IMG/VR virus record: IMGVR_UViG_3300047994_000094
Location: 1-48,891 of that record
Strand: one strand, 5' to 3'
Length of the DNA: 48,891 bases
Source: a virus
In this document: one piece after another, positions 23,101 to 48,891 of the stretch
How the letters are laid out: each line of letters begins with the position of its first letter
How positions within the stretch are numbered: position 1 is the stretch's first letter
Notes under the pieces: model-generated
The model's input: the letters and a program-made list of their open reading frames with translations, nothing else
Told to the model about the DNA's origin: nothing
Database searches by the model: none
Translations under genes and position numbers: made by a program

Positions 23101-24322
23101 GCGGGGTCTGGGTCTGACTTTCCTGGTCAGATTGTCCTACCGGGTCGGTATGACCGCCATGGAGCGCGCCAAAGCCCGCGCCGATGGCGCCGCCGCTGAG
23201 CGCCCCCGAGACAGCCGCCATCGCGGTCTCTGACGGATCGAACGTCTTGCCCGTCGCCTGGCCCTGGAACTGCTGATCCGCGGCGTTGTCGGCGGCTGCC
23301 TGCGCGCCCATGGTAGCAGCACCCTCGGTGCCGCCCACCATCGCCCGCTGGAACAAAGACAGGCCCTTGGGGAGCAGCTTGCCCGCGGCCATGGAGCCCA
23401 GGCCGGCCCCGCCCACAGTCCCGGCCGCCATGTGCTCCGCGGCCATGGTGGGCGCGAGTATGCCCAGCATATCCTTGCGGGCCTCGACATCGGATTTACC
23501 CTGATCGCGGAGCTGCTTATAGACCGGCGACGACATAAGCTGGTCGGGCGTCGCCGCGTCGATCTGCTTGATCATGTCGTTATAGGCGCCGCCGGCGTCC
23601 AGCAGGCCGAACGTCGTCGCCTTGGCCACGTTGGCGGCGATGCCGCCCGGCAGCACCGCCAGTGCCAGCGAGGGCAGCGCATCGGCTGCAACGCCGGACA
23701 GCCAACGGCCATAACCCGCATCCGCGATGGATGGTATGTTACTACCGTCGGGAGCCTTACCGCCGAACGGATGCAGGATGCTGGCCTGGAGCGCGAGTTT
23801 GCCCTGGGGTGAGAGATCGTCCAGCGTCGCCTGGATATGGCTCTCCACGTCGCGCTTCTGGTTCTCAATCCACGCGACGGTGCTAGGGTCGGCGTCCATG
23901 GCGCGCGCCGCGGCCGAGACTACACCCTCGGCGGCCAGGCCGGTCTGGAGCGTGCTGGCCCATAGACGGTCGCCAAAATCATGGATGGCGCCGTGTTGCG
24001 GCCCGGACTTGGGCAAATCCGCGTAGATCTGGTCCGGGTTGTCATCGCGCGGCCGGGTCGGATCATAGTAAGCCGCGTGGTCCGCCTCGGCTTTCTGCCG
24101 CGCCGCCATGATCTGTTGCTGAAAGGCGGCGAGCTGCTGGAAGTTGGTGATATCGGCCGGAGTTGTCGGCGCCGCCGGCTGAGGGCTTAGCTGAGGGTTC
24201 GGCTGCGGGTCAGGCGCTTGCTGAAGCGCGCCCGCCTGCTGCCGGGCTTCGAGCTGATCCTGGTAGTCCGAATTGGTAGCGTCGCTATCGAGCGTGCTCG
24301 GGTCGCTAGTGGTGTCGCTCAT
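17183..24322 (-). CDS. giant internal ejection / polyvalent protein with PLxRFG motif
   Basis: A 2379-residue protein encoded after two other ejection proteins. Residues about 205-390 are Gly/Ala-rich and hydrophobic, suited to crossing or lining membranes. Residues about 400-800 are a Pro-rich linker with two internal tandem duplications. A zincin-like ILHEASHH motif lies near residue 1227. FPLRRFGDY near residue 1642 matches the PLxRFG motif of large polyvalent proteins, which are injected with phage DNA. The C-terminal third is helical. I infer that it is packaged and injected. It starts in an ATGA overlap with the transglycosylase gene. It contains no polymerase motifs. Confidence 0.85.
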   Translation of the reverse strand: MSDTTSDPSTLDSDATNSDYQDQLEARQQAGALQQAPDPQPNPQLSPQPAAPTTPADITNFQQLAAFQQQIMAARQKAEADHAAYYDPTRPRDDNPDQIYADLPKSGPQHGAIHDFGDRLWASTLQTGLAAEGVVSAAARAMDADPSTVAWIENQKRDVESHIQATLDDLSPQGKLALQASILHPFGGKAPDGSNIPSIADAGYGRWLSGVAADALPSLALAVLPGGIAANVAKATTFGLLDAGGAYNDMIKQIDAATPDQLMSSPVYKQLRDQGKSDVEARKDMLGILAPTMAAEHMAAGTVGGAGLGSMAAGKLLPKGLSLFQRAMVGGTEGAATMGAQAAADNAADQQFQGQATGKTFDPSETAMAAVSGALSGGAIGAGFGALHGGHTDPVGQSDQESQTQTPPLALTYDPIKKAWVKPTLTEEPNAVPGTPNAQTKGSYRTISMPTDVPPNAQTKGSYRTISMPTDVPPDVAVAIQGALPPNPAPEAAPTPNLRMQALPAPQPRGNANTAQTPDVIAQPDQSGVIPLPDQSGAQTPPSNTTVGSAPAPSPPQNLADVQSQIAAQRAPSTPSAPEPARGQAPAAEPPQPAVAPVSRITDTVEPSAPVAAASGVEKRLDDVSIHGPEPEIPASAGNLQPDAVSNATGHPRTAGNLQPDAVSNATGHPRTAGNEGEPAPAPPVESTPVGPTDDVPGYEAYSGQHAGNAITEPTTPRAALDAKVEAARQARALRKAQQAKPGEKIKPQAYVAPDTAEAAAEPEPEAPAGPTRADTMADLRARMAQVGAKIIKVRKGNDVAKAVSMAMREISDLVDTKNNTPEAVHDAIEKWGKPTLIPGTETRRVDVADDMMRLMTGKPMGAARLERAAIEARSEASRQANVHESEGLARKADLEASHAKDLDRDNPTQAQVTDAEDVPASPALTETAAEGEEHSQGVQDFGGSKEYSEDTTNRERKARDLIQKVREGRMTALEASREFDWERPRLPNGKLKAGPPPIDENRYLASFLDAEIKRAEAEIGTPETELERLIRTQRDGNLTLRGPEARLADLRAMRAELADPVRDAVQRESKARAKKKAETKISPRRAEKPKTFSSASEPRADGLPPGAKSAFVEASKNPDLDRMLADHISRNGTVKLHDLLDMITNYRGNGDAGSPLRWLARVLKLRAKNIDVNSVARAADLGLIKDWDVERKHGEYARYDSGSSPDHIVINTAPSDSIINNPGRAATILHEASHHVTSRYLDRLREINPTHRDLGALEAIRNELVAKVSTGQVEGVTNEELSRVIHALDDPDFHELHTMMMTDPVLQNLMRRTPVSAQFRARMSNLGFEPGAPTRSIWSHFVDWTRRALGLGPHNSASGRTLFDHIMGPGTEIFDRADRFNRGLPADPVVRDMAEPFTRSFATVGNSRDVLDQAVRQADLGAMKDSLRRGLLQASALDHIVKWNRDLFRPLPRAMATLAMRHNPLEAFRAAQEKISHTQAQVMSRWSDRVNSITRRMAGRDELAQLMNDATIEGVKLGSNDPNANDHVTDRAALQELQRRFDALTPADQQLYKDRRDHYAGMQYAERDAQRRAIVGMVMRDSTPAQRAALAHTVKSLSSIEAFLANPDTSGLAQAFGTDWQKNRQLLRGIAKIQKTGFVKGDYFPLRRFGDYVVSYGDRTDPEQYGVERFEKKHEAEARRAELLQQGVDDVSPVNLRRQDYNGRGSLENVALADELENAVKGNTRLAGDADEFRRLIDNILIENMSRSELTRTRARRRGVKGASIDAPKIDATEFLAHSVRMGYLEHGGDRSRALADMRLVADELGRLGRAGEQIRAESVVQELQQRAAATSGADGGIAALARRASNLGFIQSLMSPSHAITSSIEAHSNSAAILGARHGAGKAAAALTRALADVSPALLRQGFQASMKAMGQGLKQADWNLGDAARARLVAAGADAGQMQRLFGAADEAGLIDHTYDRDLRNAAQPGLATTTVGRIWGRFLDMNAVGAHSVDVANRSAILKAAFDLEMRKSGGSEAVSIQRALDTLRDAMPNYNYGNKARIATDKGVFGPFAGPITQFKQYGIHMYGVMANMLRESLHGADPQTRREARRAFAGILATHALMAGSLTLLSDPLRLIGGLYDWVTGAQGPHDYENDVRGFLSDTFGPELGEIVARGVPHAVGIDIHRRVGLANLLELPDLESFDAKGIEKMLATMAMGASGEDASTMAQGIHKGLQGDWVGAVHDMVPRVLRDPLTALQRADNGVVDSKGHVGLPADKISTFATIAQAVGFQPAEVSEFREGQAAVREAQQEAKTARSSLVSAWLEAEGDDRAAVMSSIRQFNATHPGQAITMPQLVSALRQRAQVAHQPATQSFGLRLPPKAAAALAQAGRFANIGS
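18395..18407. repeat. dispersed palindrome CCCTAC-C-GTTGTG
   Basis: Exact match inside the giant ejection gene, read on the minus strand as ACA ACG GTA GGG. A partial site (CCCTAC-C-GTAGCA) lies at 20105-20117 in the same gene. Confidence 0.75.
22298..22432. repeat. 54-bp tandem repeat carrying a type I-E CRISPR-like hairpin
   Basis: Three hairpins start at 22298, 22352 and 22406, each beginning GTTCCCCGC. Copies 1 and 2 have stem CCCCGC-TGT-GCGGGG, then ATGACCCG; copy 3 has stem CCCCGC-TGAC-GCGGGG, then ATTTCGGG. The two 28-nt stretches between them are identical, so this is an in-frame tandem duplication (18 codons per unit) inside the giant ejection gene, not a working CRISPR array with diverse spacers. 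The GTTCCCCGC...GCGGGGAT frame is nevertheless that of type I-E repeats. Confidence 0.9.
22679..22691. repeat. dispersed palindrome CCCGAC-G-GTAGTG
   Basis: Exact match in the giant ejection gene. The 19 bases at 22681-22699 are identical to 39110-39128 in the scaffold gene; both encode PSNTTV in Pro-rich linkers. Confidence 0.8.
22902..23019. repeat. 57-bp tandem repeat, about two copies
   Basis: A 57-bp unit starts at 22902 and again at 22959 with no differences visible. It encodes two identical 19-residue blocks beginning with NAQTKGSYRT in the linker of the giant ejection protein. The lack of divergence points to a recent duplication or an unstable tract. Confidence 0.9.
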
Positions 24323-27300
24323 GGCGGCGCCCCTGGATACGCGGGCACCGCCGCCGACGCATACACGCTCGGCTGGGCCGGCGCCGGCGGCGGTTTCCGC
24401 GGCTGTGGAACACCAAAGACACGTTCGGCGATATTCGACGGCAGGTAGGCCAGCGTGCGCCCGCGCGCTTTGTCAACGATCGCCGCGCTGCCGTCTTTTT
24501 GCGGCACCGGCGTATATTTTCCCGTCGCAGCGCCCGCCGCGATTTCATATGCAGTCGGCGGCGGCATCGTGCCCAAAGCGGAATTATGCCGCGCGGAGCT
24601 GTAAATCAGCGATGCGTCACTGAGCTGCTGCGCAGTCATAGGCTGGTTGTCATAGGTCGATCCAGGCGCAAACAAGCTCTGTGCTTCTTTGTCCACGGCG
24701 CCCGCCTTGGTCGGGTCCATGGTGAGCGCGCCTGTGTTTTTGCTCGTCAGGAGCCGCGTCGCATCCGCCGCGGCGGCTTTCTGCTGATCCTCGGCGAGCT
24801 TCTCGCGCGCCTCCTTGAGACGGTCGATCTCGGCCTGGCGCCGCGTGTCAGCCATCTCCTTGTAGTAGTCGCCATGCTGTTGCAGGAACGCCATCTGCGC
24901 GTTGGACGCCTGCTGCTCCTTGACGGCGGCGAGATATTTTACCGGGTCTTGGGTGACGATCATCTGCGGTTGCAGGTTTTGGCGCGTGACCATGAACTGC
25001 GGGCCGAGTGCCTTGGTCGGGTCATGATCATCGAACATCTGCGCCCATACCTGACCCTTGCTGTCCACGCCGAACCGCCCCATGGCGCCATCGGGCACGA
25101 AGGCATGAGCGCGCGCGAGTTGTGCGGCTGCGGTCGCACCATCGCCGCCGGCGAGCGCACGATCGGCGTTCATCAGGGCCATGCTGGCACCTTGGCGCGA
25201 CATGGTCATAATATCTTCTTGGACCTGCTGGGCTCCCGCTGTGTCCCCGACAAGTAGCCGTGCATAGACACCGGAGATTTCGGCTTTACGCCACGCATCC
25301 GTGAGTGGCGCGTTAGCTTGCGCAGCGGTCGTTGCCAGGTATTTCAACGCACCATCCGGGCCGGATTGTATAGCGGCGTGCAGCGCCGTAGGGTCCACGT
25401 CGGGTTGTTTATAGAGCATATTGGGCGTGATGTTTTTTGTCGCGTAGTATTTTTCAACATAATCGCGAACTTTTTGTGGAAGCATTGACCAGTCTTGTGC
25501 GTTGTAGGCTTTCGCAACTATGCCAGTGCCGGTCTTTGGATTTCCTATGCCAGCGTTATATGCCGCGATGCTCCAAGGACTATCTTGGCCATAAGTATCA
25601 TCGCACTGCTTAATATATTTTGCGCTGATCTGAACGTTATGCTGCCAGTTTCGAAGATCGAGCGTGTGCGCAGGGTCCACTATATCGTGGGTTCCTGGCA
25701 GCACTTGCATCATACCAACTTCACCAGCCCTACCGTCGGGAGCATCGATGTGGGCGCCACTTTCGACCCACGCAGTCGCGGCCAGGCGCTGCGGCGACAC
25801 GCCTTCGCTGGCTGCTGCCTGTGTGAAAACTTTGGCTTCTTGCGGGTGGATTTTTTCCATACTCGCCAGCGGCCATAACAGGACGGGCGGCGTGACCTTG
25901 GTCGGCGTCGCCTCGCTCTGGTCGGTCGCACCCTTTTGGTCAGGCGCGACTTTCGCGGACGGCGCCGTGGTCGCGACCGCGGGTGACGCCGCGGGTATCG
26001 GTTTGGTGTCTTTCTGGTCTGCGGCGGGCACCGGCGGCGTGTCGCCGTCAGTGTCGATTTTCGCCGGCGGGAGCTTGGCGTCGGCACGCCTGGCGTCATT
26101 CGTGGCGCCGGCGATCGTGTCGCCATAGGCTGCTTGAACCGGGTTGAAAAACCCTATGACTTTTGACAATGCCGACGCCGGCGCGCTGGAGGCGCTGGCA
26201 CCGCCAAGAGCCGAACCGGGCTTGGTTATCCCGGTCATGGTCTCAACGTCGGCGTTTTTGCCAGTGTCAGGGTTGACGACGGGCGTGCCTGCGGCCCCGA
26301 CGGTAGGGGCCGTCGTGAGCGTGCTCACATCGGCGTTCTGGCCGGTATCGGGGTTGACGACGGGGGTGCCGCTGGCCGGCCCCAACGCCGTGCCATAGGG
26401 CTTGGGCGCTTGAGGCGAGTCGGGACCGCCCACCATCTGGGTAAACGTCCCACCCGTCGAGGGCTGGCCACCTGCCATCGTGGGGGGCGCCTGGCCCGGC
26501 GTGCGCGGCGGTCCGCCCACGGTGCCCGTCGCCGGGTTATATTGGATGCCCTGCGCCGATGGGTTTGTGGGCGGCTGACCCGCCGCGTCAATTTTGCCAG
26601 TCGCTGGATTGTAAGCGAACGTAGGTTGTGATGGCTGCGCAGATACCGGCGATCCAGCAGGTGGTTGGCTGCCCGTGACAGGGCCGCCCGTGGCCGCGGC
26701 AGGAGAGGTCGGAGGGGTCGTAGCGGGTAGCGCGGGGTATGCCTGAGCAACGGCCGGTGCGGGTGCGGCAGGTGCAGGCAACGGCGATCCGTCATACTGT
26801 AGCGGCGACATTTTCGATATTGCTGCCGCGGCCACGGGCGGCCCGCTTGGAAGCGTCGGAAGCGTCGGCGCTTGCCAGTATGACGTAGGATCATCGACCG
26901 GCGTAGTTTTCTTAACCGCGTCGGCCGCTGCCGTCAGCTCTTTCTTTGTGGTGCTGTCCGATTTGTTGGGTTTATCACCGGCAACCGCAGCCGCAGCAGG
27001 ATGCTTACCCGAAGACTTCTCCGCGTCCGTGGGCGTGACCGCCATCGGATCGACCAGCGAACCGCTGGACGCGCTCGCGCCGGGAGGCGGCAACGCCTGC
27101 TGCGTGACTGGTCCTACCGTGGAATTTCCGGGTATGACACTCGGATCGTTGGTCGAATTGCCGGCTGCGTCGGTCGCGCCGCTCGCCGTGGTGCCCGTCG
27201 ATGGGCTGCTGGTCTTGAGCGCCGTCCCGCCGGTCGGCTGACTATCTTGCGCACCCTGGAGCGTCATCGCCGCTTTACGGTCGGCGGCAGCTTGGCGCTG

Positions 27301-27402
27301 TGCAAGCTGCGTATCCCACTGGTTCCACATCTGGCCAAGCTGCATCGTCTGCTCGGCCGCGTTGAAAAACCCGTTGGTAAAGCTACCCAACATGAAGGGC
27401 AT
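24319..27402 (-). CDS. internal virion protein with lytic transglycosylase (SLT) domain
   Basis: A 1027-residue protein. The first 480 residues are Pro/Ala/Thr/Gly-rich, with short repeats such as VVNPDTG and YNPATG. An SLT-type lysozyme-like domain spans about residues 530-660: AWVESG with the likely catalytic Glu, GEVGMMQVLPGT and SIAAYNAG. The C-terminal part is helical and charged. This matches ejectosome proteins that open the peptidoglycan during genome entry. TGATG and ATGA overlaps link it to its neighbours. Two exact dispersed-palindrome sites lie within it. Confidence 0.88.
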   Translation of the reverse strand: MPFMLGSFTNGFFNAAEQTMQLGQMWNQWDTQLAQRQAAADRKAAMTLQGAQDSQPTGGTALKTSSPSTGTTASGATDAAGNSTNDPSVIPGNSTVGPVTQQALPPPGASASSGSLVDPMAVTPTDAEKSSGKHPAAAAVAGDKPNKSDSTTKKELTAAADAVKKTTPVDDPTSYWQAPTLPTLPSGPPVAAAAISKMSPLQYDGSPLPAPAAPAPAVAQAYPALPATTPPTSPAAATGGPVTGSQPPAGSPVSAQPSQPTFAYNPATGKIDAAGQPPTNPSAQGIQYNPATGTVGGPPRTPGQAPPTMAGGQPSTGGTFTQMVGGPDSPQAPKPYGTALGPASGTPVVNPDTGQNADVSTLTTAPTVGAAGTPVVNPDTGKNADVETMTGITKPGSALGGASASSAPASALSKVIGFFNPVQAAYGDTIAGATNDARRADAKLPPAKIDTDGDTPPVPAADQKDTKPIPAASPAVATTAPSAKVAPDQKGATDQSEATPTKVTPPVLLWPLASMEKIHPQEAKVFTQAAASEGVSPQRLAATAWVESGAHIDAPDGRAGEVGMMQVLPGTHDIVDPAHTLDLRNWQHNVQISAKYIKQCDDTYGQDSPWSIAAYNAGIGNPKTGTGIVAKAYNAQDWSMLPQKVRDYVEKYYATKNITPNMLYKQPDVDPTALHAAIQSGPDGALKYLATTAAQANAPLTDAWRKAEISGVYARLLVGDTAGAQQVQEDIMTMSRQGASMALMNADRALAGGDGATAAAQLARAHAFVPDGAMGRFGVDSKGQVWAQMFDDHDPTKALGPQFMVTRQNLQPQMIVTQDPVKYLAAVKEQQASNAQMAFLQQHGDYYKEMADTRRQAEIDRLKEAREKLAEDQQKAAAADATRLLTSKNTGALTMDPTKAGAVDKEAQSLFAPGSTYDNQPMTAQQLSDASLIYSSARHNSALGTMPPPTAYEIAAGAATGKYTPVPQKDGSAAIVDKARGRTLAYLPSNIAERVFGVPQPRKPPPAPAQPSVYASAAVPAYPGAPP
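25728..25740. repeat. dispersed palindrome CCCTAC-C-GTCGGG
   Basis: Exact match inside the SLT domain region, read on the minus strand as GAC GGT AGG within PDGRAGE. A one-mismatch relative (TACTAC-C-GTCGGG) is at 23740-23752. Confidence 0.8.
26296..26308. repeat. dispersed palindrome CCCGAC-G-GTAGGG
   Basis: Exact match in the low-complexity half of the transglycosylase gene, encoding APTVG on the minus strand. Confidence 0.8.
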
Positions 27403-39929: not shown

Positions 39930-40220
39930 TCAATCCTCACCCTTGCCGACGCCATCGGTCGCATAGCCGGTCGCCTTGACGTTCATGGGGTTGAAGTCGG
40001 GCGACATGCTCGGCCCCTTACCCTTGGGATAGTCGCGGCTGCTCTCGGTCGGACCGGACGTGCCGGTCTTGCCGCCGCCTTTGATCATGTCCATCGGCTT
40101 TTGCGAGATATCCTTACCCTGGTCCATCGTCGGCCCTTCCATCGGCTTGTTGGTAGGTGTCTTGCTGTAATCCTGATTGTCGCTCGTGTCGGTCAGGAGG
40201 TCTTTGGGGAACCCGGCCAT
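39930..40220 (-). CDS. hydrophilic hypothetical protein
   Basis: A 96-residue Lys/Asp/Gly-rich, probably disordered protein just downstream of the portal gene. Unrecognised. Confidence 0.62.
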   Translation of the reverse strand: MAGFPKDLLTDTSDNQDYSKTPTNKPMEGPTMDQGKDISQKPMDMIKGGGKTGTSGPTESSRDYPKGKGPSMSPDFNPMNVKATGYATDGVGKGED

Positions 40221-42425
40221 CTAGTGAACAACTCCCGGCATGGACTGGCTCTGGTTGCTGGGCGGCGCCGCATCGGCCAGTTGTGACGGCGCCGGATGCG
40301 GCGGCTGCGCGCCCTGGGTCTGCGCCGCCGGATTGCTGTTAGGCTGACCGGGTTTGCCCGGCGGCTGACCAGGTTGACCGCCAAGCTGACCCTGGGGGTT
40401 CATCGCCGCCTGTTGCGCCGCCTGGGCCTGCTGCTGCTTCTGCTCGGCCTGGAGCGTCTGGTCATCCGGCACGATATCGTCGGGCAGCCCAAGCCCCTGT
40501 GCGACGGAGCGCAGCACACGCGCCCGGCCAACCACGCCGACGATGGGGGCGTCGATGGGGTTCCCCGTGATCTGGAGGAACTGGAGCTGCTTCTGGCGCT
40601 CGGTGTCCTTCTCGATCGCCACATTGACGCCGCGGACGTTGACTTCCTCGTTACCCGTCAGAAGCCCCGACGTATCCGTCAGCATGATGAGATCATAGAC
40701 ATCATGCAGGAGCGGCTCCATCACATCGCCGTCCACATTGCCGGCGACCGTCTGGAGCATGTTCTTGGAGTTATCCATGAGCATGGACAGACCCGAGGCG
40801 GTCCGGCCGGCGCCGCCGGCGTTCGAGCCGGTGATGTATCGGGGGATCGCCGACGCCTCATCGCAAAGCTGCGACACGGCGTTATAGACCGCCAGCAAAG
40901 CCTGCGAATTGTCTTGCGGTTGGAAGAAACTGACGGGTTCGCGCGACACGCCCATGGGGTCCATGGTGATGTGCCAACGCTTCCACGGATACAGCTCGTC
41001 CGCGTCGGTCCCCGGTGTGACCACTTCGTCATTGATGACAACCTGGGGGCCGGACGCGATCGACATATTGTTCACCAGCGCGCGGTAGGCGGCGTTGGCG
41101 ACTTCCTGGTGATCCTCCAGCATGTCACACAGGCCATGGCCCGCGATGGTGCCGGGCACCTTCTCGAAGCTGGTGACGTAGTAGGGATGCCGCTGGCGCG
41201 GGCTGGGGTTCATCTGGACCTTGATCACGTAGCGCCCGATCAGCCACGCCCGCACCGAGTAGTCCATGTCGGGATCGGCGATCTGCGCCGCGGTCATACC
41301 GTAGCGCATGAGCATTTCGCCCTGCACCATGCCGTTGAACTCCAGCCCTTCGATATACTCGGACTGGTTGAAATTCGGGTCTTCGCGGTTCTCCAGGTAG
41401 GCGCGCTCGGAGTCGTTGCTGTCCAACCACTCACGTAATCCGTGCGCGTAATCCGTGAGCACGGCGCGGATCGCAGCTTCGTCATACCCTGGCAGACCGA
41501 TCAGATTATTCAGGTCAGACCGCGTATAGCGCCGCCGCTCCAGCGTATCGGCCTGCTCGATGGTGCTGGCACCCGGCGACCAGTAGAGATCGAATGGGCT
41601 GATGCGCTCCCAAAACATCTGCGGGATGCGCTTGATCGACGGGGTGTTGCCGTTCCAGACCAGCTTGTTGGTCATCTTGACCGTCGGCCCCTTGAGCACC
41701 GCGAAGGGGAACAGGGGCAGGTCGGTGCAGAACTCGGTCAGCGCCTCGTAGAAGCCGCCGTCGCGCAGGATATCCTCGATCTTATCCTCGGCGGCATGCG
41801 CCTGTGCGATCGCGTTGCGGCGCGCGGCCTGCTGGGCGGCGTGCATGAGCCCAACCACGCGCATATGCACCTGGCTGTCCATCATCGGCTGGTTGGCCTG
41901 CTTCGCCGATTGAACCTCCGACGACACGAGCTGCATGATCTGCGCCGAGATTTCAGGCGGCACCGGCGGGTCCGGTTGGGGATCGATGCCCCATGGCCGA
42001 TCGGGTCCGAGATAGACCTGGCGCAACAGGCTGGTGGCGCCGCGGCACTTGCCGGCCACCATGCGCGAATAGACTTCTGAGCCGCCGAACTTCTTGATCC
42101 AGTGCAGCTTGTCGGGGTCATATTTCCCCTCGAACATACGCTGCGCGCGGATCAGACGGTCATTCAACGGATTGTTGCCGTTGTTCCGCTGGTTGCGAAA
42201 TATATTCCATAAATTGCGGATGAATGATCCGATATCGGGGATCATCGGCGCCGGGCGGTTGGCGGTGCCCTGCGCTTGGGCCTGAGCCTGACTATCCTGC
42301 CGGTCCAGCTCGCTGCCCGATACCAGGCGCAGCAATCCGCCGCTGCGACCGTTCACAGTCGCACCAGGCGCCCGCGAGTAGGCGGGTGGCGTGGAGTTGG
42401 ACCGGCCGGGCAAAGCTGTGGGCAA
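40221..42425 (-). CDS. portal protein
   Basis: A 734-residue podovirus-type portal. The N-terminal 80 residues are Pro/Gly/Gln-rich. The helical core includes IRNLWNIFRNQRNN, SEVYSRMVAGKCRG and GTIAGHGLCDMLEDHQ. A Gln/Pro-rich C-terminal tail closes the protein. It sits at the head of the leftward virion operon, downstream of a predicted promoter in the divergent gap to the Tad2-like gene. It should form the DNA-entry vertex and dock the terminase. Confidence 0.88.
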   Translation of the reverse strand: MPTALPGRSNSTPPAYSRAPGATVNGRSGGLLRLVSGSELDRQDSQAQAQAQGTANRPAPMIPDIGSFIRNLWNIFRNQRNNGNNPLNDRLIRAQRMFEGKYDPDKLHWIKKFGGSEVYSRMVAGKCRGATSLLRQVYLGPDRPWGIDPQPDPPVPPEISAQIMQLVSSEVQSAKQANQPMMDSQVHMRVVGLMHAAQQAARRNAIAQAHAAEDKIEDILRDGGFYEALTEFCTDLPLFPFAVLKGPTVKMTNKLVWNGNTPSIKRIPQMFWERISPFDLYWSPGASTIEQADTLERRRYTRSDLNNLIGLPGYDEAAIRAVLTDYAHGLREWLDSNDSERAYLENREDPNFNQSEYIEGLEFNGMVQGEMLMRYGMTAAQIADPDMDYSVRAWLIGRYVIKVQMNPSPRQRHPYYVTSFEKVPGTIAGHGLCDMLEDHQEVANAAYRALVNNMSIASGPQVVINDEVVTPGTDADELYPWKRWHITMDPMGVSREPVSFFQPQDNSQALLAVYNAVSQLCDEASAIPRYITGSNAGGAGRTASGLSMLMDNSKNMLQTVAGNVDGDVMEPLLHDVYDLIMLTDTSGLLTGNEEVNVRGVNVAIEKDTERQKQLQFLQITGNPIDAPIVGVVGRARVLRSVAQGLGLPDDIVPDDQTLQAEQKQQQAQAAQQAAMNPQGQLGGQPGQPPGKPGQPNSNPAAQTQGAQPPHPAPSQLADAAPPSNQSQSMPGVVH

Positions 42426-42432
42426 CGAACCC

Positions 42433-42453
42433 CCAATAACTACTACGCTTGTG
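42433..42453. promoter_or_regulatory. degenerate palindrome in the divergent promoter region
   Basis: CACAAG-C-GTAGTA (minus strand) is a two-mismatch relative of the dispersed palindrome. It lies just downstream of the predicted leftward -10 (42459-42464), near the likely transcription start of the whole virion operon, where a repressor would act. Confidence 0.5.
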
Positions 42454-42458
42454 TTTTA

Positions 42459-42488
42459 TACATAGCGTGGGGTTTAATGGTGACGCAA
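42459..42488 (-). promoter_or_regulatory. candidate leftward promoter for the virion operon
   Basis: On the minus strand TTGCGT, an 18-bp spacer and TATGTA form a sigma70-like pair ahead of the portal gene. The -35 is weak. It lies in the 81-bp divergent gap, the only obvious place for a virion-operon promoter. Confidence 0.4.
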
Positions 42489-42506
42489 GTCTTATAGGGC
42501 ATGATC

Positions 42507-42806
42507 ATGGATGAAACGCGAGACGTTCTGCCGGACGCCGGTTTTGATTTCGCGCTGGCGTGGCTGAGAGAAGGGCGCCGCGTTGCCCGGCAGGGCTGGA
42601 ACGGCAAAAGGATGTTCATCTTCCTTGTTTCAGGTAGCACCTTCAAAGTCAGCCGGCCGCCGCTCCTGGGGATATACCCGGAAGGCACTGTCATACGCTA
42701 CCACGCCCATATCGATATGAAGACGGCCGACGGCATGGTCGTGCCCTGGTTGGCCTCTCAGACTGACATCCTCGCCAACGACTGGATGCTGCTTCCCGAA
42801 AGCTAA
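42507..42806 (+). CDS. Tad2-like (DUF2829) anti-Thoeris candidate
   Basis: A 99-residue protein matching the DUF2829 pattern: a short N-terminal helix, then RRVARQGWNGKRMFIFLVSG, and a C-terminal MKTADGMVVPWLASQTDILANDW. These blocks mark the Tad2 family, whose members bind and sequester signalling nucleotides made by Thoeris defence. It should act in the cytoplasm early after entry. ATG 42507 is favoured over 42501 because AGGG is 8-11 bp upstream. It starts the rightward terminase block. Family assignment is strong; the activity here is inference. Confidence 0.85.
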   Translation: MDETRDVLPDAGFDFALAWLREGRRVARQGWNGKRMFIFLVSGSTFKVSRPPLLGIYPEGTVIRYHAHIDMKTADGMVVPWLASQTDILANDWMLLPES

Positions 42807-42808
42807 CC

Positions 42809-43327
42809 ATGTCTGCATCACTCACAACCGTAGGGAATGTTACGCCCGCCGGCCCGGTCGTGCCCACGCATGCCATGGACATCCCCATCAACTCCCTGGT
42901 GGATGACCTGGCGCGGAAAATTCACCCGGTATCGACCATTGCGGCGCGCTATTGCCTGACGCTGCCGGAACTCTATGCGATCCTCCAGCGGCCGGGCGTC
43001 CAGCGCATGTATCGCCAGCGCAAGGCGGTATGGGAGAGCGACGCCAGCTCAGGCGAACGCCTGCGCACCTATGCCGAGGTCGGGCTCATCGAGGTCGCGC
43101 CCGACGGGTTCCAAGCCGTCAACGATAAGAGCGAGCCGGCGCAAATCCGTGCGGAATGGCTGCGCACCTTCGCCAAGATTATCGGCGATGGACCATCCAA
43201 AACGAGTTTGGACGGTCCCAAAGCGGCGCAGTTTTCCATCAACTTCATTTTCCGCGACCACCCGCGCGAGGCGTTCGTCGGCAACGTCGGGCAGTCGCCC
43301 CTCGTCATCGAAGCCAATCCTGAATGA
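42809..43327 (+). CDS. terminase small subunit
   Basis: A 172-residue protein directly upstream of the large terminase, overlapping it by ATGA. LARKIHPVSTIAARYCLTLPELYAIL is a plausible helix-turn-helix for packaging-site recognition, followed by a helical oligomerisation region. An exact palindrome site overlaps codons 6-9. Confidence 0.82.
   Translation: MSASLTTVGNVTPAGPVVPTHAMDIPINSLVDDLARKIHPVSTIAARYCLTLPELYAILQRPGVQRMYRQRKAVWESDASSGERLRTYAEVGLIEVAPDGFQAVNDKSEPAQIRAEWLRTFAKIIGDGPSKTSLDGPKAAQFSINFIFRDHPREAFVGNVGQSPLVIEANPE
42823..42835. repeat. dispersed palindrome CACAAC-C-GTAGGG
   Basis: Exact match inside the start of the small terminase gene, 12 bp after its ATG. Confidence 0.8.
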
Positions 43328-44721
43328 GCCTGGTCTATGAGCCGCCCCGGACGATCGAGCGTTTCATGTTCGACCAGTCTCTCGTGCGGTGCGTGGTCGG
43401 ACCGATCGGCTCCGGCAAGTCGATGGGCTGCATCATGGAGCTGCTCCGGCGCTCGCAGCAGCAGGCGCCCGATCACAGCGGGATCCGGTTCACCCGATGG
43501 GCCATCGTGCGCAACACCCTCCAGCAGCTCCGTCAGACGGTGCTGGCCGACGTGGTGCAATATCTGGGGCCAATGGTGCGGTTCTATGTGACCGATGCCA
43601 CCATCCAGCTTCGCGTGCCGCTGCCGGATGGCACGTTCCTGCACAGCGACTGGCTGCTCATCCCGCTCGATACGCCGCAAGACGTTAAACGGTTGCTCTC
43701 CATGCAACTCACCGGCGCCTGGATCAACGAGATCAGGGAAGTCCCGATCGGCGTCGTCGCGGCGCTCATCGGCCGGTTGGGCCGGTTCCCCTCCAAAATC
43801 CAGGGCGGTCCGACGTGGTTCGGACTGGTGGCAGACACCAACCCCTGGGATACCGACAGCCCCTACCATGACCGGTTCGTGCTCAACCCTGATGCGAAGT
43901 GGAAGCTGTTTCACCAGCCGTCCGGCATCGCGCCGGACGCCGAGAACGTCGAAAATCTCCCCGACGGCTACTACAACAACCTTATGTCGAACCGCGATGA
44001 AGGGTGGGTCTCGGTTCATGTCGAGAGCGAGTGGGGCACCAGCAACGCCGGCCAGGCGGTCTTTAGGCGGTCCTTCCACGCACCAACGCACGTGCGTGAC
44101 ATGCAGGTGGTCATCAATCCCGCGCGGCCGGTCATCGTCGCGATGGATTTCGGGCGCACCCCCGCGGCCTTGATAGGCCAGGCCGACGTGTTCGGCCGGG
44201 CGCTCATTTTCGATGAAGTCGTCACAACCGACATGGGGCTCTACGCCATGGTCGGAGACATCCTTAAGCCAAAGCTCCAGCGCGACTATTCCATCCATCG
44301 CATGTTCATCGTGGGCGACCCGGCCGGCAAGCATAAATCCCAGCTCTCCGAGGAAACCGCGTTCAAGGTGTTGGAGAAGTGCGGCTTCGCTGCCTACGCC
44401 GCCAGCACCAACAACATCGATCCGCGACTCCGGTCCGTCGAGCGCCTCATGCGCGCGCAGATCATGGGCGAGCCCGGCCTACAGATCAGACGCGCCGGCT
44501 GCCCCACGCTCATCCAGGCGCTCGGCAATAAATATCGCTACCGTAAGAAGCGCGACGGGCAGCTCGAAGACATGCCTGAGAAGCTACACCCATGGTCGGA
44601 CGTGGCCGACTGCCTCCAGTATTTTTCGCTGGGCATGGACCAGAACCTGGCGGCGAAGCACATCAGCCGCAGCAGCCCGGTCGCGCGCTATGCCACACCC
44701 AACAAGGCAGGGTGGACTTAA
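43324..44721 (+). CDS. terminase large subunit
   Basis: A 465-residue packaging ATPase and nuclease. Walker A GPIGSGKS is at residues 26-33, and NEIREVP near residue 138 holds the Walker B acidic residues. The nuclease domain shows VAMDFGRTP with a catalytic Asp near residue 275, FIVGDPAG near 335 and WSDVADCLQY near 425. It cuts concatemers and drives DNA into the portal. No homing insertion or frameshift is seen. Confidence 0.93.
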   Translation: MSLVYEPPRTIERFMFDQSLVRCVVGPIGSGKSMGCIMELLRRSQQQAPDHSGIRFTRWAIVRNTLQQLRQTVLADVVQYLGPMVRFYVTDATIQLRVPLPDGTFLHSDWLLIPLDTPQDVKRLLSMQLTGAWINEIREVPIGVVAALIGRLGRFPSKIQGGPTWFGLVADTNPWDTDSPYHDRFVLNPDAKWKLFHQPSGIAPDAENVENLPDGYYNNLMSNRDEGWVSVHVESEWGTSNAGQAVFRRSFHAPTHVRDMQVVINPARPVIVAMDFGRTPAALIGQADVFGRALIFDEVVTTDMGLYAMVGDILKPKLQRDYSIHRMFIVGDPAGKHKSQLSEETAFKVLEKCGFAAYAASTNNIDPRLRSVERLMRAQIMGEPGLQIRRAGCPTLIQALGNKYRYRKKRDGQLEDMPEKLHPWSDVADCLQYFSLGMDQNLAAKHISRSSPVARYATPNKAGWT

Positions 44722-44795
44722 CGCAACGGGCATTTTAGGGTTTCGAGTCCGCATTGGGCGGAAGGAGTCGCGAACAGTGACTTAGACAAAGTAAA

Positions 44796-44829
44796 GGCTG
44801 GCCTCCCGCACACCGACGAAAGACCAGCC
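44796..44829 (-). terminator. second stem of a tandem leftward terminator
   Basis: GGCTGG and CCAGCC pair around a 22-nt loop, extended by CT/AG with one mismatch. Read leftward it follows the main terminator and is succeeded by TTTACTTTG, giving a back-up stop before antisense transcription reaches the terminase gene. Confidence 0.6.
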
Positions 44830-44881
44830 AAAAAAAAAATAATCCCCATCAAAGAACACTGCCAGGCGTTCGATGGGGATT
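44830..44881 (-). terminator. leftward rho-independent terminator
   Basis: On the minus strand AATCCCCATC and GATGGGGATT form a perfect 10-bp stem around a 21-nt loop, followed by A and ten T (44830-44839 on the plus strand are ten A). This should end the leftward right-end operon. Confidence 0.85.
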
Positions 44882-44958
44882 ATGGGGGCGCCAGATGATT
44901 TTGGCAACCCCCTTTGCGGGTTTGGATAGGTGCGCGCCGTGTCAGCCATGGAGACACC

Positions 44959-45444
44959 ATGGAAGACCCAAAAGCGTTCATCAAAGCCGTCGATCGTGCC
45001 CGTCGTGACAAGCTGAAATTTGAAGGCAAGGGCGTCACCGCCCTGCACTGCAAGATCGCGGTGAGCCTGGCCTACTCGCGCCAGGCACATCCATCGCATC
45101 GATCATTGGCCCGGCGTGCCGGGTGCTCATCCCGCACCGTGCGCCGCGCCCTGCGCATCCTCCACGGCCTCGGCCTGCTGACCTGGACCCGGCGTGTGGT
45201 GCAGGGCCAGGGATGGCGCGCGCAGGTCTCCAACGCCTACCAGCTTCTTTCTTGTAAGCCTTTATCTTTCTTAGGTATTAAAAGCTCGGCCAGCTTGTCC
45301 GCATCAGGCGGGACGAGTGACGCGCAACAGCGGGCCAGGGATGAGCTGGCCCGTGTGCGGGAGGCGCGACTCGGTATTATTCGTCCTCATAGCCATCGAC
45401 CTGGTTGTAAACCTGGTCGATCTCAGCCGTGGGCAGTTTCTTAG
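44959..45444 (+). CDS. helix-turn-helix protein, replication/regulatory type
   Basis: A 161-residue protein. A winged-helix-like domain at about 25-95 includes HPSHRSLARRAGCSSRTVRRALRILHGLGLL, the layout of phage HTH proteins related to replication initiators. The C-terminal 65 residues are low-complexity. GGAGACACC precedes ATG 44959. Its last 68 bp overlap, antisense, the small gene at 45377-45517. It could regulate late functions; no operator is proven. Confidence 0.78.
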   Translation: MEDPKAFIKAVDRARRDKLKFEGKGVTALHCKIAVSLAYSRQAHPSHRSLARRAGCSSRTVRRALRILHGLGLLTWTRRVVQGQGWRAQVSNAYQLLSCKPLSFLGIKSSASLSASGGTSDAQQRARDELARVREARLGIIRPHSHRPGCKPGRSQPWAVS

Positions 45445-45517
45445 CCAGCTCTAACGCCAGCTCTAACGCCAGCTCGGGGTCGGCTTCGTGAAGCTCGGCC
45501 CACGGCCGGGTGCTCAT
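45377..45517 (-). CDS. 46-residue acidic protein
   Basis: Begins MSTRPWAELHEADPE and contains an internal LALE repeat from a 12-bp tandem duplication. The start overlaps the RHH gene's stop as ATGA, strong evidence of coupling. Probably a small partner of the RHH protein, as in toxin-antitoxin-like pairs, but no toxin motif is visible. Confidence 0.68.
   Translation of the reverse strand: MSTRPWAELHEADPELALELALELAKKLPTAEIDQVYNQVDGYEDE
45444..45475. repeat. 12-bp tandem repeat, 2.7 copies
   Basis: GCCAGCTCTAAC in tandem inside the 46-residue acidic gene, giving repeated LALE. Confidence 0.85.
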
Positions 45518-45921
45518 GGCTTGGGCTTCTTCACGGCAGGCACATGCCCCAGGTTGGTCATGAGCTGCTTCACCAGGAGCCGTTTGGCGGTCCTGGCGCC
45601 GGGTGTCGTCGGGCCGATCTGGGCCAGCAGCTCATACGCCGCCTGTAGCTCGCCCATGGACACCCTGGGCGGCGCCTCCACCACTACCGTCGGGACGGGC
45701 GCGGCCAGCGGGATGGGCGCGATGACCGCCGGCGAGCGTTCCTCGTTGATCTCGGCCTTGACCATGCGCAGGATGTTGCGTGTGAGCCACTCGCCCTGTG
45801 TCATGCGCTGGCGGGTGGCCGCGGCGATCGCGGCGTTGCGCGCCTCGATCGAGACGCCTTTGATCGTCCATGGCTTGGGATCATCGATATCGACCACGTT
45901 GGCCGATGCGGTTTGGGACAC
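45514..45921 (-). CDS. ribbon-helix-helix-like DNA-binding protein
   Basis: A 135-residue protein. WTIKGVSIEARNAAIAAATRQRMTQGEWL near residues 15-45 is a ribbon-helix-helix pattern of the kind seen in many alphaproteobacterial small regulators. The rest is helical, with a Pro-rich stretch. GTG 45921 is chosen because AAAGG lies 9-13 bp upstream and it opens right after a large inverted repeat. RHH dimers bind short palindromes, so this is the best local candidate for recognising the dispersed palindrome; that link is inference. Confidence 0.78.
   Translation of the reverse strand: MSQTASANVVDIDDPKPWTIKGVSIEARNAAIAAATRQRMTQGEWLTRNILRMVKAEINEERSPAVIAPIPLAAPVPTVVVEAPPRVSMGELQAAYELLAQIGPTTPGARTAKRLLVKQLMTNLGHVPAVKKPKP
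45682..45694. repeat. dispersed palindrome CACTAC-C-GTCGGG
   Basis: Exact match inside the RHH-like gene itself. Confidence 0.78.
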
Positions 45922-45922
45922 G

Positions 45923-45962
45923 GGTATGACCTTTCTGACGGGTGTGGTCAGACGGTCATACC
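45923..45962. promoter_or_regulatory. inverted repeat upstream of the RHH-like gene
   Basis: Arms GGTATGACC and GGTCATACC match perfectly; inside them TCTGAC pairs with GTCAGA, leaving a 7-nt loop and unequal 2/1-nt bulges. It covers the ribosome-binding site of the RHH-like gene, so it could be an operator for autoregulation or an mRNA hairpin controlling translation. Confidence 0.72.
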
Positions 45963-45980
45963 GTTTCGGTCCTACCCGAT

Positions 45981-46250
45981 CTAGTGTCCGATCGATGTCA
46001 GATGGAAAAGAGCCGCGATCGAAGCAGCCGCGATCGACGCCCCGCCGATGGCGGTCCATAAAACCTGCACCGTCTTGAGGCCGCCGGCGCCCTGCGCGAG
46101 CTGCGTCGTCATCCGATCCAGCTTATCGTTGATCTGAACGACCTGCTTGCCGATCCAGTCTTCATGCCGCGTCATCCGTGCGTCGAGCATTTCAACCTTC
46201 CCCACCAGAACGCCGTAGTTGAAGTCCGGATTAGGGTCGGATGGTGGCAT
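45981..46250 (-). CDS. coiled-coil protein with one C-terminal TM segment (holin-like/XhlA-type)
   Basis: An 89-residue protein from ATG 46250 (GTG 46259 is possible). A charged helix near 15-55 (EMLDARMTRHEDWIGKQVV) is followed by one TM segment near residues 62-86. This resembles XhlA/haemolysin-type holin accessories. It lies in the holin operon, two genes away. No canonical Shine-Dalgarno; a strong hairpin lies just upstream. Confidence 0.72.
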   Translation of the reverse strand: MPPSDPNPDFNYGVLVGKVEMLDARMTRHEDWIGKQVVQINDKLDRMTTQLAQGAGGLKTVQVLWTAIGGASIAAASIAALFHLTSIGH

Positions 46251-46270
46251 AGCGGGCACTCACAAACAAG

Positions 46271-46302
46271 TGAGGGGAGGCACGTAATCGTGTCTCCCCT
46301 CA
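46271..46302 (-). terminator. leftward hairpin terminator-like element
   Basis: TGAGGGGAG-G-CACG, loop TAAT, CGTG-T-CTCCCCTCA: a stem of about 14 bp including one G-T pair. The following leftward sequence (CTTGTTTG) is only moderately T-rich. It separates two genes and could attenuate transcription. Confidence 0.75.
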
Positions 46303-46327
46303 AATAAAACCGCAGTCGTTTCGTGAT

Positions 46328-46678
46328 CTAGCTGGGAACGACGGCGACGGCTGCCGCGACGTTGAGGTCCAGCTCCGTAGCCACCAGGTCGGCCACCACG
46401 TCCACGGCCAGCGTCACGCCTATCAGGCCGGCGCTGTCCGTCAGGGTCAGCGTCTCGGTCGCGCTGGTGACGGCATGCCCGGCCGAATTGATGACCACGG
46501 CGGGTGCGCTGCCGTCCGGCATCATGCCAACCGAAAAGAGGCTGCTATCGGTCGCGCCGATGCTGTTGGTCACGGTGAAGGTGTCTCCCGACGGTAGGGC
46601 GACGGGCTGGCCCGCGACGTTTAATGCCTCGATGGGGACATAGTAATTCTTGGTGTTGACGGCTTCAAAGTTGGGCAT
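46328..46678 (-). CDS. beta-rich hypothetical protein
   Basis: A 116-residue protein with alternating Val/Thr/Ala strands (Ig-like; VTSATETLTLTDSAGLIGV). A strong ribosome-binding site GTAGGAGG precedes its ATG. A head decoration or Ig-like surface protein is possible; no motif proves it. An exact palindrome site lies at codons 27-31. Confidence 0.7.
   Translation of the reverse strand: MPNFEAVNTKNYYVPIEALNVAGQPVALPSGDTFTVTNSIGATDSSLFSVGMMPDGSAPAVVINSAGHAVTSATETLTLTDSAGLIGVTLAVDVVADLVATELDLNVAAAVAVVPS
46587..46599. repeat. dispersed palindrome CCCGAC-G-GTAGGG
   Basis: Exact match inside the Ig-like gene, read as CTA CCG TCG GGA on the minus strand. Confidence 0.78.
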
Positions 46679-46689
46679 GGTTGATCCTC

Positions 46690-46974
46690 CTACTTGGCCT
46701 CGGGTGCCGGTTTGGTGACGGGATTGACCCCGGCCTGGTGCACCGGGCGAACAGGGCGAGCCCCGGCCGGCGTGTTCGCCACTGCCGGCGTGATGGTGGA
46801 CGGCGCGGGCTTGGCCGCCGGCACGGTCGCGGCATGCACGTGGGTGTGCAGCTCCAGATGCGCGGCCTGGAGCGCCATGTGCGACTCCGCGAGTGCAATA
46901 TGGGACTTGGTGACGCTCTCCAGCTTCTCTGCAAGCTCCGCGACCGCGGCGCTCTCCTTACGCAACCAGGCCAT
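46690..46974 (-). CDS. coiled-coil hypothetical protein
   Basis: A 94-residue protein with a 45-residue helix of heptad-like Leu/Ala (ELAEKLESVTKSHIALAESH) and a Pro/Ala-rich tail. AAGGAG lies 8 bp upstream of the ATG. No function seen. Confidence 0.68.
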   Translation of the reverse strand: MAWLRKESAAVAELAEKLESVTKSHIALAESHMALQAAHLELHTHVHAATVPAAKPAPSTITPAVANTPAGARPVRPVHQAGVNPVTKPAPEAK

Positions 46975-47128
46975 CTTTTTTCTCCTTCGTGGTGAGTTTG
47001 ACCGTGCTCTGTCCGTCCACCACGTCGATCACGACGTAGGGCAGCTCGGCCGGAGGCTCGGGCTCCCATATCCAGGACCACAGCTTCATGATCAGGGTGG
47101 GGGCGTAGGGCGACCGGCGGCGTGTCAC
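46958..47128 (-). CDS. 56-residue hypothetical protein
   Basis: Starts at GTG 47128 in a GTGA overlap with the holin stop (ATG 47089 is the alternative, giving 43 residues). It contains MKLWSWIWEPEPPAELPYVV near its middle. It overlaps the next gene by 17 bp. The GTGA coupling supports a real gene. Confidence 0.6.
   Translation of the reverse strand: MTRRRSPYAPTLIMKLWSWIWEPEPPAELPYVVIDVVDGQSTVKLTTKEKKDGLVA
47030..47041. repeat. dispersed palindrome CACGAC/GTAGGG, no spacer
   Basis: Exact zero-spacer match inside the 56-residue gene. Confidence 0.75.
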
Positions 47129-47619
47129 GATGTCGCCGCGCGAGACGTGGCACTGGCCAGCTTGGCGGCGCGGACGGCGACGGATGTGGCGCCGTTACCG
47201 GCGAGCCCTTGGGTCTTCTCGATGGTGCGGTAGGCACCCAGGCCCAGCATCGGCACCAGGATCGCCATGGTGGCGTTCGTGTCGAACACCGGCGGCGCAG
47301 TGTGCGCGCCGCACAGCGACGCGACGTAGCCGATGGCCGGCCCCAGGAATATCTGCCAGGCCAGGCCGACGCCGCCAACCCAGCCGATGAAGGGTCGCCA
47401 GCCCGACACGAAGACGCTCTCGTTGGACGCCTCGGCCTGGTTGATGGTGGCCTGCTGCTGCGTCATGGCGGCGTCGGCCGCCATCACCTTCTCCTGAAAT
47501 TCCTGGAGCGCCGCAGCCTTTGCCGCCGGGTCAGGGATCAGGTCGGCAAGCCGCGACACCACTGGCCCAAGTAGGGCGCTGATGCCGCCTGTCGCGAGAC
47601 TGAGAATGGTGCCGCTCAT
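47125..47619 (-). CDS. holin (3TM type)
   Basis: A 164-residue protein of the Holin_3TMs type. The N-terminal MSGTILSLATGGISALLG and the central SVFVSGWRPFIGWVGGVGLAWQIFL and TMAILVPMLGLGAYRTIEK blocks match that family, and hydrophobic segments near residues 2-20, 70-95 and 120-140 fit three membrane passages. It should open the inner membrane for the endolysin. ATG 47619 has no Shine-Dalgarno and lies at the predicted transcription start, so the transcript may be leaderless. Confidence 0.85.
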   Translation of the reverse strand: MSGTILSLATGGISALLGPVVSRLADLIPDPAAKAAALQEFQEKVMAADAAMTQQQATINQAEASNESVFVSGWRPFIGWVGGVGLAWQIFLGPAIGYVASLCGAHTAPPVFDTNATMAILVPMLGLGAYRTIEKTQGLAGNGATSVAVRAAKLASATSRAATS

Positions 47620-47626
47620 GGTCGCA

Positions 47627-47655
47627 ATTATGGCACGTGACGATAAGAACCACAA
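47627..47655 (-). promoter_or_regulatory. candidate promoter for the holin gene, overlapping a palindrome
   Basis: On the minus strand TTGTGG, a 17-bp spacer and CATAAT. The -10 ends about 8 bp before the holin ATG. A one-mismatch relative of the dispersed palindrome (CACAAG-C-GTCGTG, 47651-47663) overlaps the -35, as a repressor site would. Confidence 0.5.
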
Positions 47656-47686
47656 GCGTCGTGATTGGAATACGACCGCCCGTAAA

Positions 47687-47730
47687 CCCTACCTTCGTAG
47701 TTATTTTTAGGTGCCTAAAAGACCACCTAA
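47687..47730. promoter_or_regulatory. AT-rich intergenic inverted repeats
   Basis: Upstream of the holin gene lie CCCTAC-CTTC-GTAGTT (a wide-spaced palindrome relative) and TTTTAGG-TG-CCTAAAA (47705-47720), the latter with perfect 7-bp arms. TTAGGTG at 47707 also pairs with CACCTAA at 47724. Possible operators; no T-tract terminator is seen. Confidence 0.5.
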
Positions 47731-47750
47731 CCTATTAGAAACGATGGATT

Positions 47751-48080
47751 TTACGACCGGTTCCCACGTGCGTTGATCATTTTATTGACCGCCATAAGGA
47801 GCTGGCGCACCGCCGCGAGGGCGGTGTCGTCGCGGCGCCGGCGGCCGGAGCGCACATGGGTGAGAGCTTTCTCGACCGCGTTCTGTAGGATCGTCAGGTC
47901 TTTCTCGGTCTGCTCCAACGTGTCCAGGCACACACGCACCTGCACCCGCCTGTCGCCTCTAGCTGCAATGATGATGGCGTTACTGACTTTTTCCAGGTCC
48001 GCGGTGTCGCGATTTGATGAGGCGGCCGGCGGCGGGCTTTTCGTCGGAAAATCTATTACCTTAGTGAATGTTCGTTGCAT
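47751..48080 (-). CDS. hypothetical helical protein
   Basis: A 109-residue basic protein with a helical core (ADLEKVSNAIIIAARGDRR and TLEQTEKDLTILQ). Possibly a small regulator. GGGATGACTAAGT precedes the ATG, giving only a weak ribosome-binding site. Confidence 0.68.
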   Translation of the reverse strand: MQRTFTKVIDFPTKSPPPAASSNRDTADLEKVSNAIIIAARGDRRVQVRVCLDTLEQTEKDLTILQNAVEKALTHVRSGRRRRDDTALAAVRQLLMAVNKMINARGNRS

Positions 48081-48156
48081 ACTTAGTCATCCCATCTGTA
48101 ACGCGGACCCTACACACAGGATGGTAACATAAGCCTATATTTCATTCATATATCAA

Positions 48157-48567
48157 TTACGCGGCCCTGACCTCCCGCCCATCACCCTCGGCGATACGCA
48201 TCAGTGCCGTGGTCGGCCGCACATATTTCACCTGCACGATGCTCTCTCGCGACGAGACGTTGCCCGGCGCCGTCTCGACCTGGATGACCACCAGGTTCCT
48301 GAGCATCGACGTATTGATGCAATTATCGAGACCCCACTCTGAGCATCCCACGTGTTTCGCGAGTAGTTTCCGGTCCGGGAACGGCATGGCGCGGCGGTGC
48401 ATTTCCACGAGCGTCGCGAGTATGGCCGCGGTGTGTTTCGGAGGGCGCCGACTACCATAGTGATCTGCTATATAGTTCTTAATACGTTCGCACATCGCGC
48501 GGTCTATCTTCGGAAGGTTGGTAGGCTCTGCCTCTTTCGCAGCCTTCGTTTTAGGTGCCATCGTCAT
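48157..48567 (-). CDS. putative winged helix-turn-helix protein
   Basis: A 136-residue protein, first in the leftward right-end block. MPFPDRKLLAKHVGCSEWGLDNCI near residue 70 resembles a helix-turn-helix, with a following strand (VVIQVETAPGN). It could regulate the nearby genes. ATG 48567 is used; ATG 48561 is also possible. Confidence 0.68.
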   Translation of the reverse strand: MTMAPKTKAAKEAEPTNLPKIDRAMCERIKNYIADHYGSRRPPKHTAAILATLVEMHRRAMPFPDRKLLAKHVGCSEWGLDNCINTSMLRNLVVIQVETAPGNVSSRESIVQVKYVRPTTALMRIAEGDGREVRAA

Positions 48568-48834
48568 ATTTCTCGCTTGTCACATTTACACGCAGGGTCG
48601 TGGTTGTTCGGGAGCTTCTAATTTTTGCGACTCGGCTGATGTAAACGACTAGATCATAGACTCATCCTGTCATGTCAAGTGCGGCTTATACCTACTAACG
48701 TAAGCGTTATTATTTATCACTATCATAGTATTTAGTCGTTTTGTATTGTGGGGGTGTCGTGTCTGAGCGGTTTACCTAACGGGGGCGTGCCCGCCCACCC
48801 CCCTGTCCATATGCCCACCCCGGCCCGCGGCCAG
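48568..48834. other. AT-rich intergenic region at the right end
   Basis: This gap has no supported gene. It holds a possible leftward promoter (TTGACA at 48673-48678; TATGAT at 48653-48658 with an unusually short 14-bp spacer), an ACTAT-C-ATAGT palindrome near 48721-48731 and AACG-TAAG-CGTT near 48697-48708. It then turns very GC-rich. It may be a control region between the leftward right-end genes and a rightward gene cut by the left edge. Confidence 0.45.
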
Positions 48835-48891
48835 GCGCACCCGCGCACCCGCGCACCCGCGCACCCGCGCACCCGCGCACCCGCGCACCCG
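48835..48891. repeat. 8-bp GCGCACCC tandem repeat at the window end
   Basis: Seven full units and one extra base, running into the window edge. An open plus-strand frame beginning at ATG 48810 reads through the array as AHPRTRAP repeats, but it cannot be confirmed. The array may be why the assembly stopped here. Confidence 0.9.

Follow-up and report, generated by a model that had tools for sequence, protein, structure and literature searches.

The Tad2-like gene and its neighbors

The window analyzed here, which comes from a podovirus, is the whole 48,891-nt stretch of the IMG/VR virus record IMGVR_UViG_3300047994_000094. On its plus strand, at 42507-42806, it carries a gene for a Tad2-like protein (PF11195/DUF2829) of 99 aa, recognized by Pfam, PHROG and PDB matches and by AlphaFold2 (AF2) modeling with Foldseek. 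An AGGG at 42496-42499 (+), read from the sequence as a probable ribosome-binding site, is separated by 7 nt from the ATG at 42507 and by 1 nt from an in-frame ATG at 42501. The latter ATG is too near the AGGG, and thus the ATG at 42507 is favored as the start. No second PF11195 match was found in the 48.9-kb record.

The portal gene (40221-42425, minus strand; phrog_332, E=2.9e-70; Pfam SU10_portal, E=6.9e-16), whose product is 54% identical to the portal of Rhizobium phage RHph_TM27A, starts at 42425 and is divergent from the Tad2-like gene and the two terminase genes behind it. To judge from the gene orientations, the intergenic stretch between portal and Tad2 (42426-42506) presumably serves both the portal operon and the packaging operon as a bidirectional promoter region. 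A search ahead of Tad2 found no sigma-70 consensus promoter. The best copies elsewhere of 20-mers from the intergenic stretch carry 4-5 mismatches, so there is no sign of a phage promoter that is repeated. The TerS-like gene (42809-43327, +; phrog_36773, E=7.8e-8), homologues of which at 30-31% stand directly before TerL in related phages, follows the Tad2 stop by 2 bp and overlaps by 4 bp the gene of the terminase large subunit TerL (43324-44721, +; phrog_2, E=1e-19), which has relatives at 62-67%. A sequence-only reading had placed the Tad2-like gene in the divergent gap ahead of the terminase, and the order portal (-), Tad2 (+), TerS-like gene and TerL is confirmed.

Some further features of the window were recorded. 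The divergent gap contains, at 42428-42474, an imperfect inverted repeat (AACCCC...ACGC / GCGT-GGGGTT, read by eye) that is possibly an operator, and a helix-turn-helix protein (HTH_36) is encoded downstream of TerL at 44914-45444 (+). In the structural block, an ORF of 2379 aa (17183-24322, -) includes the large polyvalent protein associated domain LPD39 (PF18858, E=4.6e-11) and adjoins a gene for an SLT transglycosylase protein (24319-27402).

Family membership, fold and pocket residues

The motifs VARQGWNGKRMF, KTADG and PWLASQTDILANDW are all present in the translation of 42507-42806 (+), so that the coordinates and the DUF2829 motifs named in the sequence-only reading are exact; its assignment of the protein to the Tad2-like family also stands, with Pfam, PHROG and fold all in agreement. 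The curated PF11195 profile matches over positions 3-72 of 73, i.e. most of its length, with E=1.3e-22 and 80.6 bits against a gathering cut-off of 25. Two function-unannotated PHROG families are matched as well, phrog_1048 (E=1.1e-26) and phrog_872 (E=6e-26), and a search of NCBIfam matched no family. In IMG/VR, 125 relatives were confirmed and 80 were retained, approximately 62-78% identical. Every significant match in the PDB sequence search was a Tad2 or its synonym AcrIIA7, the best being ModTad2 (6e-16). The window protein is a genuine Tad2 family member, well beyond chance.

A single-chain AF2 model was built from 37 sequences, of which one was the window protein and 36 were relatives taken from the fetched loci, and reached a mean pLDDT of 88.9. 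When the model was compared with the PDB by Foldseek, all 24 matches at E<=0.001 were Tad2 structures, and the next match had E=0.13; the top one was 9eib, ModTad2 with His-ADPR (E=1.1e-9, TM 0.76/0.86). The comparison with known Tad2 structures that had been proposed beforehand, made here with the monomer, thus returned nothing but Tad2 at this threshold, and the model has the Tad2 monomer fold.

Loss of the ligand-pocket residues had been named as an outcome that would speak against a Tad2. The pocket was compared at the level of sequence columns and loops, and by this measure all 19 residues that are invariant in the ModTad2, SPO1, Spt and Hgm proteins are kept in the window protein (F13, A16, L20, G23, V26, R28, G30, W31, N32, G33, K34, M36, F37, W81, S84, D87, A90, D92 and W93). 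The beta1-beta2 loop contains W31-K34 (WNGK), and W81-D87 belong to the beta4-alpha3 loop/helix, where the W..S..D..A.DW segment is retained; these two elements are said to line the gcADPR pocket (PMC12043709).

Among the characterized proteins, ModTad2 from a Myroides odoratus prophage (9EIB with His-ADPR, 8V3E apo) is the best match in both sequence and fold, and it shares WNGKxMF and W..S..D.LA.DW with the window protein. However, the two are about 35% identical in the structural alignment and fall on different branches of the tree; ModTad2 reads WTPSVSD where the window protein has WLASQTD, and it lacks the RPPLLGIYPEGT loop. The founding anti-Thoeris Tad2, that of SPO1 (Gp34.65; 8SME, 8SMF, 8SMG and 8WJE), has the same fold and likewise a short loop, but is about 35-38% identical, has another loop sequence and forms a long separate branch. 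HgmTad2/AcrIIA7 (8KBI-8KBM, 8WJC and 9KZR) and SptTad2 (8WJD) also have this fold, together with a WLASQTD identical to that of the window protein, and HgmTad2 has LANDW in common with it too.

Subfamily residues and the predicted ligand

We consider it fairly probable that the gene encodes a Tad2-type sponge of an ADPR-derived Thoeris signal, which was gained as cargo and is now the first gene of the packaging operon. An anti-Thoeris function of the protein is inferred as likely. Which signal would be bound is a narrower question, as the solved Tad2s differ in their ligands: gcADPR for SPO1 Tad2, His-ADPR for ModTad2 (structure 9EIB), and cADPR plus cyclic dinucleotides in other cases.

When 154 Tad2 domains were placed in a tree, the window protein fell in a subfamily of 109 rows, mostly from proteobacterial phages and prophages, which is over-represented because the window protein itself was the seed of the search. 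The support of this branch, 93/95, is slightly under the bar of the tool. None of the four solved Tad2s is in the subfamily, and as far as we searched, no solved or tested member of it was found. Eleven residues of the window protein are fixed in the subfamily, that is, present in at least 90% of 37 aligned members, and are not found in any of the four solved Tad2s (S44, F46, V48, R50, L53, L54, I56, T61, H68, D70 and P80). The beta2-beta5 loop and the strand behind it hold nearly all of them, and the loop as a whole is strongly conserved within the subfamily. With no solved member and with solved Tad2s that bind different signals, the exact ligand can not be read from the family, and the eleven residues suggest that it may differ from the ligands of the solved proteins.

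One version of the sponge reading, compatible with the main explanation, is that the subfamily binds a new ADPR-like signal whose specificity is set by this loop. The clustering of the eleven residues in the loop and next strand of a separate subfamily points in this direction; however, the loop motif could be structural, and the branch support falls short as stated above. We give this version some weight as a minority possibility.

The length of the same loop bears on the class of ligand. The span from MF to the following strand comprises 27 residues in the window protein, near the 25 of ModTad2 and the 24 of SPO1 Tad2, whereas SptTad2 has 36 and HgmTad2 42. HgmTad2 and SptTad2 additionally bind cGG and other cyclic dinucleotides, and the site is their long beta2-beta5 insertion (PMC12043709), which the window protein lacks. 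That the main target is instead a cyclic dinucleotide or trinucleotide, of CBASS or a similar system, might be argued from the structural match to these two proteins and from the conservation of the beta2-beta5 loop in the subfamily, which probably has some role. We regard it as improbable, for the span is close to that of SPO1 Tad2, which does not bind 3'3'-cGAMP, and far from that of HgmTad2. The short span favors an ADPR-type (Thoeris) ligand over a cyclic dinucleotide, and the predicted ligand of the sponge is probably His-ADPR, gcADPR or a close isomer.

Among 30 genomes with a member of the subfamily, only 7 have genes for ThsB-type TIR proteins, a count that is not interpretable because it has no baseline rate. 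Six subfamily members (L048, L051, L052, L056, L061 and L078) are extended at the N terminus by about 50-60 aa, possibly a second domain, in which they share a GY.S(W/F)(S/C)P motif.

The terminase site and the proposed role of the gene

Megablast of 40000-48891 against named phages gave no match, and relatives were therefore sought with protein searches. The TerL search gave 20 metagenomic relatives (47-67% identity). For 17 of them, the fetched DNA includes the portal as well as TerL; several of the 17 are near-identical, so that they represent about eight lineages. The divergent portal/TerL layout is the same in all 17, and none has a Tad2 in the gap between portal and TerS. Measured between ORF starts, the portal is separated from the TerS-like gene by approximately 51-104 bp in the lineages measured, L089 apart, versus 383 bp in the window. 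Judged by TerL (43%), portal (54%) and DNA polymerase (37%), the named phages closest to the window phage are the Rhizobium phages RHph_TM3_14A, RHph_TM27A, RHph_TM27B and RHph_TM29, which have the same divergent arrangement of portal and TerS-TerL. However, RHph_TM3_14A, the nearest by TerL and polymerase, has no Tad2 or other gene between the portal and the gene before TerL, only a gap of 58 bp. The placement, called notable in the sequence-only reading, is indeed unusual within this phage clade.

L089 has another insert between portal and TerS, namely a minus-strand ORF of 237 aa (3710-4453 of that locus), suggesting that the slot takes varied cargo. Given the gaps without Tad2 in the 17 relatives and the Rhizobium phage, the Tad2-like gene is best read as a lineage-specific insertion that heads the packaging operon, in a slot that takes cargo.

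Across the subfamily, terminase is a recurrent but not a constant neighbor. The Tad2 gene stands immediately ahead of TerL in four other IMG/VR loci, where TerL belongs to phrog_2 (L010 and L020), phrog_38 (L023) or phrog_9 (L035), and directly behind it in a fifth (L072). In 26 non-redundant contigs of at least 15 kb with a phrog_2 TerL and a Tad2 of the same subfamily, Tad2 and TerL are within 4 kb of each other in 14, against 6.3 expected by random placement (P=0.001). Among contigs of at least 30 kb, 4 are near TerL against 2.3 expected, which is not significant. The closeness of Tad2 and TerL in the subfamily is thus above chance, but only moderately so. Other members lie among replication genes or distant from TerL, and the immediate neighbors include TerL, portal, an internal virion protein, GroES, ribonucleotide reductase, thymidylate synthase and endolysin, which argues against a single partner gene. 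Counts of these immediate neighbors are rough, as the simple gene caller mis-called the TerS and TerL of the window itself (shadow ORFs).

A role in packaging or head assembly, for example as a terminase accessory factor, would explain the position in the terminase operon. It draws on the location of Tad2 directly ahead of TerS/TerL, on the subfamily members adjoining TerL of three PHROG families elsewhere, and on the enrichment within 4 kb. We hold it to be very improbable, since the relatives keep the portal-TerS-TerL block without Tad2, other members are found away from TerL, and the enrichment is lost in the longer contigs; the linkage to terminase was accordingly rejected as proof of such a role. 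The involvement of several TerL families points to repeated insertion rather than a common packaging function, and as the subfamily adjoins terminase in several unrelated phages, placement alone is no argument for a special function. An AcrIIA7-type anti-CRISPR that blocks Cas9, a reading prompted by the deposition of HgmTad2, which has the same fold, as AcrIIA7 or inhibitor of type II CRISPR-Cas, is extremely improbable, because reports of AcrIIA7 activity conflict (PMC13131331), the solved AcrIIA7 complexes hold nucleotides, and the window protein is without the AcrIIA7 insertion.

Under the preferred reading of a Thoeris sponge, we infer that the small protein would form a tetramer and bind an ADP-ribose-derived alarm molecule made by a TIR (Thoeris) enzyme of the host. 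With the signal soaked up, the Thoeris effector would stay off, and the cell would not be shut down before phage progeny are made. On this reading, the gene entered as cargo at the point where the portal and terminase genes diverge; as the first gene of the packaging operon, it would probably be co-expressed with TerS and TerL, at about the time when capsid proteins appear. In Staphylococcus and Streptococcus, it is the major capsid protein that activates Thoeris (PMC12578639), although the cases of capsid sensing considered here come from Gram-positive hosts only, and the nearest named kin of the window phage infect Rhizobium. The unusual site would then be useful, as a sponge made together with TerS/TerL would appear at about the same time as the capsid protein. 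Going further, the fixed RPPLLGIYPEGT...HIDMKTA loop of this widespread subfamily might read a TIR signal that the solved Tad2s do not bind, and several phages might independently have placed the sponge in the packaging operon, timed with the capsid proteins that trigger Thoeris; this is a speculation to which we attach a rather low probability.

The presence of a Tad2-like gene is not new in itself, since P015 of Sinorhizobium phage AP-20-A, another alphaproteobacterial podovirus, has been reported as a putative Tad2-like protein and is also closest to ModTad2 (PMC13299392); that phage has other structural genes than the window phage. What is well supported here is a Tad2 member that has newly taken up a place before the terminase and belongs to a subfamily without a solved or known tested member. 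Tad2 is a recognized class of phage counter-defense, and the solved proteins lie outside the largest branch of our search, a branch that is over-represented by the window-seeded search and is spread over many, mostly proteobacterial, phages and prophages. For this branch the window protein provides a clean representative whose subfamily-specific residues are defined, so that its ligand is directly testable. In addition, the gain of a gene at an exact point of a conserved block, just before terminase, neatly illustrates how cargo can be slotted under a phage operon that already exists, and the site offers a way to test whether the timing of some sponges matches a late alarm triggered by capsid.

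Tad2-like genes also occur at other sites in this group of phages. In the records of the 20 relatives, many of which are fragments, one other PF11195 gene was found, in the record of L103, a relative at greater distance from the window phage. It is a divergent, approximately 27% identical Tad2-like gene with a shortened beta2-beta5 (L185, 1507-1692, minus strand), and lies about 4.9 kb beyond TerL. Two sister phages (L017 and L018; TerL 47%) carry a Tad2 of the same subfamily as the window protein at another site, 2.7-3.9 kb from TerL and on the opposite strand.
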